NCBI GenBank assembly: GCA_019637445.1
Contig: JAHBVS010000002.1
Coordinates: 124,001 to 188,000 of the forward strand
Length of the DNA: 64,000 bases
Reading direction: 5' to 3'
Source of the DNA: Gemmatimonadaceae bacterium
GTDB lineage: Bacteria; Gemmatimonadota; Gemmatimonadetes; Gemmatimonadales; Gemmatimonadaceae
Positions 26,386 to 30,592 of this stretch are shown piece after piece. Below the pieces are notes generated by a model, which made no database searches, was not told where the DNA came from, and saw only the letters and a program-made list of their open reading frames with translations. The position numbers and the translations under genes are program-made. How positions within the stretch are numbered: position 1 is the stretch's first letter; every line of letters starts with the position of its first letter.

Positions 26386-26955
26386 ATGAAACTACTTTGG
26401 CCACCCCGCCCGCTTGGACTGGGAACGCCGCTTGGGCTCGCCGCACCGTCCGGTCGCACGCGGCCAGATCTGCTCCGAGACCTGCGCCTCGTTCCGGTGT
26501 TCGGCATTTTCACTGCGCTACTGATCGTCGCCGTTGACGTCCTGCTGTTCTACGGGGCCACGATTGGCCGCATGCCCTCGCTCGACGATCATCCCGCGGT
26601 TGTATCCCGCGTCTTCGTGTCACTGTTCGGAGGCGTGCTTGAAGAAGTGATGTTTCGCCTCATGCTCGCCACGTTCATTGCGTGGTTGGCATATCTCGCG
26701 CTCTCTCGCGTCGTGGAGAAGCCGAAAGAGTAGGCGCAGTGGTGTGGCACTCTCGCGGCGGCGGCGATCACCGGCCTGTGGTGGCACCTCAGCAGTATGG
26801 ATGATCCGTTCACCGTTGCGCGCGTGCTGACCGTGAACATGATTGCCGGCGTCATGTATGGCTGGCTCTACTGGTCCAGAGGGCTCGAGGTCTCAGTGAT
26901 GACCCATACGGTCGTTTATCTTTGCCTCTACATCGCAGTCCCGGCACTTCGCTGA
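26386..26955 (+). pseudogene. CPBP-family intramembrane protease interrupted by in-frame TAG
   Basis: The first frame (115 residues) has a membrane segment and the CPBP motif 1 as EEVMFR (residues 86-91). A TAG stop stands at 26731-26733. The same frame then continues for 73 more codons with LAAAAITGLWWHL (motif 2-like, His) and VSVMTHTVVYLCLYIAVPALR (motif 3-like, His), ending at 26955. The product without readthrough lacks two of the conserved motifs. It is a pseudogene, or an amber readthrough case. CPBP proteases process CAAX-like proteins or confer bacteriocin immunity. Confidence 0.7.
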
Positions 26956-27093
26956 CGCTGACAGGCTCGCAGTGCAGTCGCCCGTAGCTGGAGAGAACTC
27001 GTATCGCAGTTCGATCGCGTGGTGGGGTGATGTTCACCCGATTTAGTGGACACCGCAACGGTCCAGAGAGAGCTTCTGGACAGGAGGTGATCC

Positions 27094-27387
27094 ATGCGGA
27101 AGAAGCAGCCGAAGGCGTACAGCCTGGAGTTCCGGGAGGAGGCGCTGCGACGGGTGCTGGAGGGCTCGACCCCGATCCGGGCGCTCGCGCAGGAGCTGGG
27201 CGTGCACGTGGAGACGCTCCGCAATTGGCGCCGCGACGCGCGGGTGGCGGGGTATGCGGAGCCGGACCAGCGTCCCAAGACGTTGGCGGAGGAGAACCGC
27301 GAGCTGCGGCGCGAGAACGCGCGCTTGAAGGAGGAGCGCGACATCCTAAAAAAAGCGACGGCCTTCTTCGCCAGGGATGCCCGCTGA
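27094..27387 (+). CDS. IS3-family transposase OrfA
   Basis: 97 residues. A helix-turn-helix at the start (SLEFREEALRRVLEGSTPIRALAQELGVH... ETLRNWRR) and a C-terminal leucine-zipper-like coiled coil (TLAEENRELRRENARLKEERDILKKA) are typical of IS3 OrfA. AGGAGG lies 5 nt before the ATG. The frame crosses the A7 run at 27348, where OrfAB fusion would form by a -1 shift. Confidence 0.88.
   Translation: MRKKQPKAYSLEFREEALRRVLEGSTPIRALAQELGVHVETLRNWRRDARVAGYAEPDQRPKTLAEENRELRRENARLKEERDILKKATAFFARDAR
27348..27354 (+). other. Putative -1 frameshift site for OrfAB
   Basis: Seven A residues read in the OrfA frame as the heptamer A AAA AAA, a slippery sequence. A -1 slip leads into the frame that encodes KYAFIRAHARTWRV, the standard N-terminus of IS3 OrfB. 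Confidence 0.6.
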
Positions 27388-28252
27388 AGTATGCGTTCAT
27401 CCGCGCGCACGCCCGCACGTGGCGCGTAAGCACGCTGTGCCGCGTGCTCGGGGTGTCGAGGGCCGGCTCAAGTGGCGGGCGGAGCCGTTCAGCAAGCGCC
27501 GACAGTCGGACGCGGCGCTGCTAGTGCACGTGCGGAAGCACTTTTACCGACTGCGCCGGCGCTACGGCAGCCCACGGCTCTGCCGCGAGCTCCGGGCAGA
27601 GGGCCACGTGTGCAGCGAGAAGCGCGTGGCGCGGCTGATGCGGCTCGCGGGGCTGCGGGCGAAAGGCGCGCACCGCTTCGTGGTGACGACGAACTCCGAG
27701 CACACGCAGCCCGTCGCGCCCAACCGGCTCGGCCGGCGTTTCGCGGTCGGCACCCGGACGGACCTCAATCGCCGCTGGGCGGCCGACATCACCTACATCC
27801 CCACGCACCAAGGATGGCTCTACCTGGCCGTGATCCTCGACGTGGCGTCCCGCCGCGTCGTCGGCTGGGCGACGAGCGTCCGGCTCGATCAGGAGCTGGT
27901 GCTCGCGGCGCTCAAGATGGCGCGCTGGCGCCGCGGGGCCTGCGGCGCGCTGCACCACTCCGACCGGGGATCGCAGTACGCGAGCGCGGCCTACCAGCGG
28001 GCGCTCCGGGACGGCGGCATGGTCTGCAGCATGAGTCGGACGGGCGACTGCTGGGACAACGCGGTGGTGGAGAGCTTCTTCGCGACGCTGACGAAGGAGC
28101 TGCTCGATGACGGCGTATTCGAGACGCGCGAGGACGCGCGCCACGAGCTTGGCACCTTCATCGAGGCGTGGTACAATCGGGAGCGGCGACACTCGTCACT
28201 GGGCTTCCGCTCGCCGGTCGAGTACGAAACGCAGGTCTGTCGGGCAGGCTAA
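27377..28252 (+). pseudogene. IS3-family transposase OrfB, frameshifted
   Basis: The body (from about 27468) is a normal integrase core with Asp137 (WAADITYIPT), Asp196 (HHSDRGSQYAS) and Glu232 (VVESFF), with 35 residues between the last two (DD35E), ending RRHSSLGFRSPVEYE. However, the usual OrfB N-terminus (KYAFIRAHARTW...GVSRAG) lies in another frame, 27354 to about 27467, so one base appears lost near 27465. The listed frame starts with an unrelated Arg/His-rich stretch. Alternatively translation starts internally and the enzyme is shortened. Confidence 0.7.
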
Positions 28253-28281
28253 CATGGGTGTCCACGGGAGCGGGTGAACTC

Positions 28282-29571
28282 CAGAATATCACTTACGACG
28301 CCTCCGGCAACGTTGCGACTCAGAAGAGCATTCGACGCGTCTGGACCCCAGTCATGTGCGAGGATACGTTCTCGCGTGCGACTGGCGGCCATCTCTGGAC
28401 CTGGAACTTCTACGATGCGAACGAGAAGCCCCGACGGGTCCAGCAGTATCGGGTTGTCAATGACACTGTTGGTGGCGTAGCGCAGACGCACGACTATTGG
28501 TATGACGCGCTGGGGCGTCGGGTGCTGGCGCACACGTACGCAGACACGCTTGGTTGCGGTGATCCTCCGACCACCAGCCCGCATCCTGAGGCGTGCCAGC
28601 AGTCGCTGACGCGCGCCGCGTGGGACGGTGACTTCCTTCTCTGGGAGTCGCGGCGGCCTGCGGCCTGGAATCTGTCGCCAGCAACGCTAGACGTTTCTCC
28701 CTCGAACGATGCGTGGTACGGCCAGCGACGGAACATGCAGGCGGGCGCCATCGACGTGCCTCTGCTGGTCTGGAACGGCAGCGGGGTCGGGCTCTCGATC
28801 ATTCGAAACTGGCGCGGGAACGCAGCAGGCGAGATCCAGATCTCGGGAACGACACTCGGCTACGAACCCGTTTGGCCAGCTGCGCAGGTCGACATTCGGC
28901 ACGCTCCAGATGCGAGGACCAGCCCCCCACAGACCAACAGCTGGTGGGGGAGCCTCGTGAGCGATCAGGCTGATGCCACGGGGCTGCTCTATCGCCGAAA
29001 TCGATACTACGATCCGCAGACGGGTCGATTCACGCAGGAGGACCCGATCGGGCTCGCGGGCGGGCTGAATCTGTACGGATATGGGGATGGCGACCCCGTC
29101 AACTCGGGCGATCCGTTTGGGCTATGTCCAGACTGCCTCTTCGATGTTGCCATGATCGTCGCAGGAATCGCCGACATCAAGAAGAACGGGCTAGGGATCG
29201 GGAACGGTCTCGCACTCGCGATCGACGTCGTCGCAGCGGTCGTTCCGATGGTTCCGGCGGTCGCCGGGGCAGGAATGCGCAACGCACGTGTCGCGGCGGC
29301 GGTGCGGCGCGGCAACCAAGCGCATGACGCTTACTTCGCGGAGAAGACTGCCGAGGGAGGCTGGAACGTCAACAAGACCCTTGGGAAGGAACGCTTGAGA
29401 CCTGATGCGTGGAAACGCGACGGCAACCACATTATCGTTGAGGACCTCAAACCCAACACCGAGAGCGGACGGCGGGCGGCAGCCGCGTCAGCGAGGAAGT
29501 ACGAGCGCGCCGCTGCGCAGCAGTGCCCGGAATGCACGTACGAGTTTCGTGCCAAGTACTATGACCCTTGA
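28282..29571 (+). CDS. Truncated Rhs protein with C-terminal nuclease-like toxin domain
   Basis: Only the 3' part of an Rhs gene remains; the frame enters from the IS3 end with no natural start (first internal ATG 28354). It holds YD repeats (ITYDASGNV, YWYDALGRRV) and the Rhs core hallmark GLLYRRNRYYDPQTGRF...DPIGLAGGLNLYGYGDGDPVN, closing at DPFGL (29111-29125). The variable tip of about 147 residues has a hydrophobic stretch, then RPD (29398-29406) and EDLK (29440-29451), a pattern like PD-(D/E)xK nucleases. Likely a displaced polymorphic toxin tip. Confidence 0.7.
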   Translation, partial: QNITYDASGNVATQKSIRRVWTPVMCEDTFSRATGGHLWTWNFYDANEKPRRVQQYRVVNDTVGGVAQTHDYWYDALGRRVLAHTYADTLGCGDPPTTSPHPEACQQSLTRAAWDGDFLLWESRRPAAWNLSPATLDVSPSNDAWYGQRRNMQAGAIDVPLLVWNGSGVGLSIIRNWRGNAAGEIQISGTTLGYEPVWPAAQVDIRHAPDARTSPPQTNSWWGSLVSDQADATGLLYRRNRYYDPQTGRFTQEDPIGLAGGLNLYGYGDGDPVNSGDPFGLCPDCLFDVAMIVAGIADIKKNGLGIGNGLALAIDVVAAVVPMVPAVAGAGMRNARVAAAVRRGNQAHDAYFAEKTAEGGWNVNKTLGKERLRPDAWKRDGNHIIVEDLKPNTESGRRAAAASARKYERAAAQQCPECTYEFRAKYYDP

Positions 29572-29577
29572 TCGCCG

Positions 29578-30402
29578 ATGCTAGCCTCCATCATCTATCA
29601 CTCAACAGATTTTTCGGAGCGTTCCACTCATCTCGCTGGCCTGATACAGAGTCTGAGCGCTGCATCTGGTCGCCGGACGGTCGTTGGGTGCAAACATGTG
29701 CGGCGCGAGTCGACCCGTCCGTCGCGACGAGTTCGCCTAACTACCGAAATCGAGCGGACTCTGATTGCGGATGCAGCTGCTGGCGAACTGTCAGCCGTAA
29801 TGCTGGATTTTGAGGGCGATGCGTTGGAAGGTTCTCGCCTTGAAGTGGATCTCTGGTTGTCGACCGCCGTAACGTCTCGGCGTGCGGCCTATCCGTTCGA
29901 GGTCAAGCTGATACTTCGGCCGGGCGACGGGACGCGTGCGCTCGGCAGTTTTTCGACGATCACGATCGAATGCTTCGCCCAGCTTCGCGCATCCTACGGC
30001 TTCATTCATCGCGCGAGAACGTACGCGGAGGCTCAGATGGAGTTGGACGCGATTCCCTCATCGTTGCTAGGCAGTGAACCTTCGGACGACGAGCGAGAGC
30101 ACTGGGCCTGGCTTGGGTTCTGGCAGCGTTATCGCCATGAGGTTGGCGACTACGTTCGAACTGCGTACTTGGGCAACCTTCTGGGTTCTGCGCTGGTTGA
30201 CCGACTAGGCGGCTTGTCCACGCTGCAGGCTGAGGCCCCGGCGGCGGTTATCGAGGCCATTCCGTCGGGAGGTGTGTACTTGCAGGCTGAAGTCGAGGGA
30301 GACTGGGTTTCGAGAGACTCGATCGATTCTCTCGCGAGGTATCTGCGCCACGTCTCGCTGGAGGCACAGCACCCTGAGTTCGCGCCGACCCGCGGATCGT
30401 AG
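29578..30402 (+). CDS. Candidate immunity protein for the adjacent Rhs toxin
   Basis: 274 residues of unknown family, predicted soluble, no signal or membrane segment. It starts 6 nt after the Rhs stop, the place where an immunity gene is expected, and is followed by a strong terminator. Charged and aromatic residues are frequent (EHWAWLGFWQRYRHEVGDYV). Codon use is visibly less GC-biased than in the flanking housekeeping genes, fitting recent acquisition. The immunity role is inferred from position only. Confidence 0.55.
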   Translation: MLASIIYHSTDFSERSTHLAGLIQSLSAASGRRTVVGCKHVRRESTRPSRRVRLTTEIERTLIADAAAGELSAVMLDFEGDALEGSRLEVDLWLSTAVTSRRAAYPFEVKLILRPGDGTRALGSFSTITIECFAQLRASYGFIHRARTYAEAQMELDAIPSSLLGSEPSDDEREHWAWLGFWQRYRHEVGDYVRTAYLGNLLGSALVDRLGGLSTLQAEAPAAVIEAIPSGGVYLQAEVEGDWVSRDSIDSLARYLRHVSLEAQHPEFAPTRGS

Positions 30403-30564: not shown

Positions 30565-30592
30565 AACGCCCCGCCTGCCGGGGCGTTTTTTT
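30565..30592 (+). terminator. Intrinsic terminator upstream of purA
   Basis: 9-bp stem AACGCCCCG/CGGGGCGTT around a 5-nt loop (30574-30578), directly followed by seven T. It ends the Rhs/immunity unit and marks the right border of the accessory region; purA starts 66 nt later. It is the clearest intrinsic terminator in the window. Confidence 0.88.

Follow-up and report, generated by a model that had tools for sequence, protein, structure and literature searches.

An Rhs gene remnant at the end of an IS3-family element probably keeps a nuclease-like toxin tip and its immunity gene

The 3' end of an rhs gene, followed closely by a second gene, stands in a 64,000-nucleotide stretch of Gemmatimonadaceae DNA (hereafter the window) without the rest of the gene to which it must once have belonged. 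In polymorphic toxins generally, a shell delivers a tip, the tip cuts nucleic acid, and a partner protein blocks the tip. A preliminary description of the locus read it as a displaced toxin tip with an immunity gene, possibly of a new type. We asked how the locus came to its present form, what its two genes encode, and whether they are likely to act today. The features on which the answer depends are the following.

27028–28283, + strand: IS3-family insertion sequence with 27-bp imperfect terminal repeats (21/27 matching) and TG...CA ends; right end placed by a related element at C1:1964849
27094–27387, + strand: IS3 orfA (HTH_Tnp_1, E = 5e-18)
27377–28252, + strand: IS3 orfB transposase (rve, E = 3.9e-24)
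28149–28177, + strand: TTGGCA-17-TACAAT, which resembles an extended -10 promoter and points outward from within the IS end (by consensus only; 1 found, 0.3 expected)
28284–29124, + strand: truncated Rhs core end, up to DPFGL (Rhs matches; N-terminal part absent from the genome)
29031–29048, + strand: site-like sequence CACGCAGGAGGACCCGAT, with two mismatches to the start site of orphan cassettes described below (sequence comparison)
29125–29571, + strand: toxin tip of 148 aa, divergent Tox-REase-9 / PD-(D/E)xK-like (family score, motifs)
29578–30402, + strand: probable immunity protein of 274 aa, a remote TsiV/DUF3396 relative (profile matches of its relatives, linkage)
30565–30587, + strand: terminator-like hairpin and T run, 3' of the pair (sequence scan)

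One open frame runs from the Rhs core end through DPFGL (29110–29124) and the 148-residue tip to a TGA at 29569–29571. The TIGR03696 Rhs-associated core domain scores 64.8 bits on it against a cut-off of 32.5, and the protein is 48% and 40% identical to the two full-length Rhs proteins of its own genome. The GTG start listed for this frame (28168) falls within the IS3 transposase gene; genuine Rhs sequence begins at 28284, and the Rhs 3' end comprises 428 codons. The partner ATG at 29578 starts 6 nt after the tip stop codon, and both frames (428 and 274 codons) are intact. The continuous frame, the 274-residue gene and its 6-nt spacing, and the RPD and EDLK motifs (29398–29406 and 29440–29451) are thus all as the preliminary description gave them. 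Upstream of the tip, about 280 core residues are retained, and the N-terminal delivery part and shell (~1,400 codons) are missing. We did not find these codons elsewhere in the genome: the 1,324 N-terminal residues of a full-length Rhs, used as a query, matched just that gene itself and the second full-length gene. Neither the tip nor the immunity gene has a second copy in the genome.

The Rhs sequence breaks off where a mobile element ends. Consistent with assignment to the IS3 family, the element has overlapping orfA and orfB, an rve core and inverted TG..CA ends, reading TGATGTTCACCC.. on the left and ..GGGTGAACTCCA on the right. We placed the right end at 28283 because the related element loses similarity after the same ..GGGTGAACTCCA. 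The first Rhs base, 28284, is the next base, and Rhs homology begins immediately thereafter (I-T-Y-D from 28288; alignment from residue 12 on). Left of the element lies not Rhs but a CPBP/Rce1-like protease gene (window 26386–26955; the Rce1-like match has E = 0.081), which seems to be a frameshifted pseudogene split in two frames. No matching target duplication of 3–5 bp flanks the element (GGGG / GAAT). The start at the IS end, the non-Rhs left flank and the genome-wide absence of the N-terminus together indicate an rhs gene truncated at the IS end rather than a tip displaced by recombination. As a target duplication is absent, we favor a route in which the IS3-family element would have removed the 5' ~1,400 codons through an IS-adjacent deletion or rearrangement.

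We next consider the tip. Residues past DPFGL match PF15650 (Tox-REase-9) with E = 0.0016 and 19.1 bits, under the Pfam gathering cut-off of 27.3, and two of their relatives exceed this cut-off (46.3 bits in genome G285 and 92.7 bits in genome G284). These two tips end large Rhs frames of 1,816 and 1,616 residues, respectively. Tip matches are present in 4 of the 298 sampled genomes of the phylum, including the genome studied here. Columns conserved between the tip and its relatives include G63, H67, P93, D94, K109, P110 and N111, with G..H, PDA and LKPN common to them. In the portions of a 2012 survey that bear on this family, the Tox-REase-9 motif is given as GxxxH, E, D, ELKP and YxxE, and Imm54 is the sole listed partner (PMC3482391). 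The window tip contains GNQAH (29311–29325) and RPD, carries DLKP in place of ELKP, and has no YxxE. We conclude that the tip is probably a divergent Tox-REase-9 (PD-(D/E)xK) domain and a putative DNA-cutting nuclease, a reading that rests on family resemblance and motifs.

Structure prediction, which the preliminary description had proposed as a check, yielded a confident strand-strand-helix-strand unit in the last ~50 residues of the tip and did not confirm a nuclease fold. AlphaFold single-sequence models were poor (pLDDT 56 for the tip and 37 for the immunity protein), and that of the tip was confident just at ~95–148 (strands 95–99 and 102–110, helix 113–133, strand 138–146). Foldseek with the tip model returned nothing at E ≤ 0.001. 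Fold comparison with the same poor model gave a best Z of 5.3, with arenavirus endonucleases, which are of the PD-(D/E)xK type, tied with unrelated ferredoxin-like MamB-type domains.

Other searches delimit the distribution of the two genes. There were no relatives of either in viral contigs, plasmids and wider genome contigs, no match to either in PDB sequence searches, and no match in PADLOC. Compared with 21 other tips from its own genome and from G125, a set whose valid members include neither the tip of the second full-length rhs nor that of G285, the window tip had no blastp match at E ≤ 1. A candidate toxin relative in G031 was dropped, the match covering residues 5–75 (the linker helix) only and its tip being HNH-like by eye. 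A wider homologue search also gave a match in G095 (E = 0.001 over 64 positions).

The preliminary description assigned the 274-residue partner to no recognisable family. This holds for direct searches, in which we found no Pfam match at E ≤ 1 and no match to any other family, but relatives of the protein give weak TsiV matches. Such relatives are encoded in 3 of the 298 sampled genomes, including the one studied here; the others are a 259-aa gene in G285 and a 280-aa gene in G038. These two match PF11876 (TsiV) over nearly the same profile region with E = 5e-4 and 0.006 (19.9 and 16.4 bits; cut-off 25). Aligned by hhalign with four TsiV proteins, the immunity family reaches a probability of 78 (E = 1.8e-5) over 76 columns, in the C-terminal third. 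When a profile of the family was used to rank 1,140 reading frames and as many reversed decoys, a TsiV protein of genome G244 came first after the family's own members (E = 1.6e-4; best reversed decoy 1.5). The reverse test, with a TsiV profile run onto the three immunity relatives, was weak (E about 1.1–1.2). The matches below the cut-off, the profile comparison and the decoy ranking therefore point to a remote TsiV-like immunity protein, not to a member of TsiV.

TsiV is described as a DUF3396 immunity protein to VRR-Nuc effectors, members of the PD-(D/E)xK superfamily (PMC9635880). Searching G244 for the VRR-Nuc family turned up a single match, below threshold, which sits at another locus and is not the gene preceding its TsiV; we therefore do not claim a VRR-Nuc identity for that partner. 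Relatives of the G244 TsiV were absent from the viral contigs. In G038, no Rhs tip was recognised beside the 280-aa relative. There the orphan TsiV-like gene lies between repeats that look like tRNA-Gln 3' ends, and the locus (L044:4381–8866) has the appearance of small insertions placed in tandem at a tRNA gene.

The association of tip and partner is seen in a second genome. In G285, from another family of the class, a relative of the tip ends a large Rhs and a relative of the immunity gene follows it, 20 nt apart; the two were recovered by independent searches, each as a weak match (tip E = 1.6e-5, immunity E = 1.5e-7, per genome; the genome is 7.5 Mb). This adjacency indicates that toxin and immunity gene travel as a pair, and we conclude that the 274-aa protein probably neutralises the tip as its immunity protein. 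The pair is rare: besides the genome studied here, 2 of the 298 have an immunity relative and just one has both genes. In G284, a tip of the same family adjoins a different gene (DUF4304), so Tox-REase-9-like toxins are not always found with TsiV-like immunity. The expectation that another Rhs locus would carry one of the genes is thus borne out by G285, and the Tox-REase-9-like relatives lend support, from sequence comparison, to a nuclease-type tip with an immunity gene. To call it a 'new toxin/immunity type' would go too far: a Pfam family lies close to the tip, and the partner is distantly related to TsiV. The novelty seems to lie in the pairing of genes that are each near known families; judged by title or abstract start, none of the papers found on VRR-Nuc/TsiV, DUF3396 or Tox-REase-9 couples an Rhs Tox-REase-9 tip with TsiV-like immunity.

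We regard it as likely that the locus is a truncated polymorphic-toxin locus: a third rhs gene was broken at the IS3 element, and its 3' part survives with a nuclease tip and the cognate immunity gene. The complete gene would have encoded an Rhs shell bearing the ~148-aa tip at its C-terminus, to be freed past DPFGL. Inside a neighbouring cell, the tip may then have cleaved nucleic acid by means of a PD-(D/E)xK site formed by D94 and D107-x-K109, and the TsiV-like protein, judging by family knowledge and the linkage in G285, would have bound the tip and inhibited it in the producing cell. Having lost its signal, its shell and its native promoter, the toxin is probably silent or undeliverable today. 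The intact immunity gene may still protect against relatives with the full toxin.

Alternatively, the two genes could be decaying pseudogenes that no longer function. We consider this possible but on balance unlikely: promoter and N-terminus are lost and the adjoining CPBP-like gene seems frameshifted, but the intact 428- and 274-codon frames suggest that the loss is recent or that the immunity gene is still used.

Another reading draws on Rhs tips elsewhere in the genome. The two full-length rhs genes have other tips, and 5 and 11 orphan tips lie near them in the orientation opposite to rhs. The first array (L021:3229–17120; C2:233228–247119) comprises a full-length rhs, a gene, a tyrosine recombinase, and then five opposite-orientation orphan tip cassettes, all of which begin sharply at CACGCAGCCGGACCCGAT. 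This recombinase (L021:9498–11315) matches PF00589 with E = 1e-39; its N-terminal ~300 residues (L021:9498–10400) have no Pfam match at E ≤ 0.05 and, by eye, may resemble a Toprim-like domain. The second array (L024:2337–17704; C2:578336–593703) holds eleven orphan tip cassettes of differing sequence and the same start site, some of which resemble peptidases or a GIY-YIG nuclease by eye. It ends at a convergent tyrosine recombinase (E = 5e-44) that is 45% identical to the enzyme of the first array; the second full-length rhs is divergently oriented at a distance of about 10 kb. Each array has a tyrosine recombinase at its end and converging with it, and the orphan tips start at a fixed CACGCAG with no core before them.

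At a third site (L027:6121–7231; C1, about 1516120–1517230), a lone 1.1-kb cassette, by eye a peptidase-like tip and a lipoprotein-like gene, has a perfect 16-bp direct repeat, CCACGCAGCCGGACCC, on either side, which gives it the look of a site-specific insertion. In G125, of the same genus, a homologue of the recombinase (L074:11856–13589, 44% identical) is accompanied by an rhs end and by three orphan tips around it that do not all point the same way (L074:7766–17475), an arrangement compatible with inversion.

The arrays and the lone cassette suggest site-specific exchange of Rhs tips. Extending this to the window is tentative and, in our estimate, rather doubtful: rhs genes would be docking platforms, a tyrosine recombinase would move ~1-kb cassettes of tip and immunity gene at CCACGCAGCCGGACCC within conserved codons of the core, much as happens in integrons or shufflons, and the window pair would be a cassette captured on a third platform and stranded by the IS3 element. 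Arguing against such a system, an rhs in G072, of the same genus, carries the site with no array or recombinase within the 40 kb read around it. The 64-kb window has no relative of the first array's recombinase at E ≤ 1e-3, and the cassette site shows no supported attC-like hairpin over the 16 array cassettes (z +0.6 to -2.1). Among the titles listed on both Rhs and shufflons, none treats tip exchange.

An expressed toxin-antitoxin-like unit, in which the IS end gives promoter and start and the pair serves as an addiction or stress module, is quite improbable. The frame is open into the element and one outward extended -10 promoter-like match lies in the IS end, but promoter support is weak, with one consensus match against 0.3 expected.

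Least probable, and very unlikely, is the displaced tip of the preliminary description, in which recombination of a new tip into a complete rhs nearby would have stranded the old tip with its immunity gene, as in Salmonella and E. coli. In its favor, orphan tips are abundant in this genome, in arrays of 5 and 11, and a sequence resembling their start site occupies the corresponding codons of the window rhs. But no complete rhs lies upstream, the CPBP-like pseudogene occupies the left side of the IS, and about 280 residues of core remain in the fragment, which begins exactly at the IS end, whereas array tips begin at CACGCAG without core.

Read as the remnant of a third rhs, the locus offers a concrete and testable pair of putative nuclease and immunity genes in a bacterium from the environment, and it suggests that the use of TsiV-like immunity extends to Rhs tips from another PD-(D/E)xK family. 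The context of cassette exchange is perhaps more interesting than the window pair, as the recombinase-associated arrays could reveal a form of Rhs tip exchange that does not rely solely on homologous recombination.

Orphan Rhs toxin/immunity pairs are reportedly found in Salmonella Typhimurium LT2. The window locus is like these in having an Rhs tip and immunity gene without the N-terminus, and unlike them in being truncated by an IS3 element with no intact rhs adjoining. It shares with Tox-REase-9 (PF15650) a C-terminal position on Rhs, the GxxxH, D and (D/E)LKP motifs, and relatives above the family cut-off, though the window tip itself falls below it, with DLKP for ELKP and without YxxE. 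Compared with TsiV/DUF3396 (PF11876), the immunity to T6SS VRR-Nuc effectors, the partner scores far under membership and accompanies an Rhs Tox-REase-9-like tip rather than a PAAR-VRR-Nuc effector; like TsiV, it adjoins a toxin of putative PD-(D/E)xK type, and it is similar in its C-terminal third.
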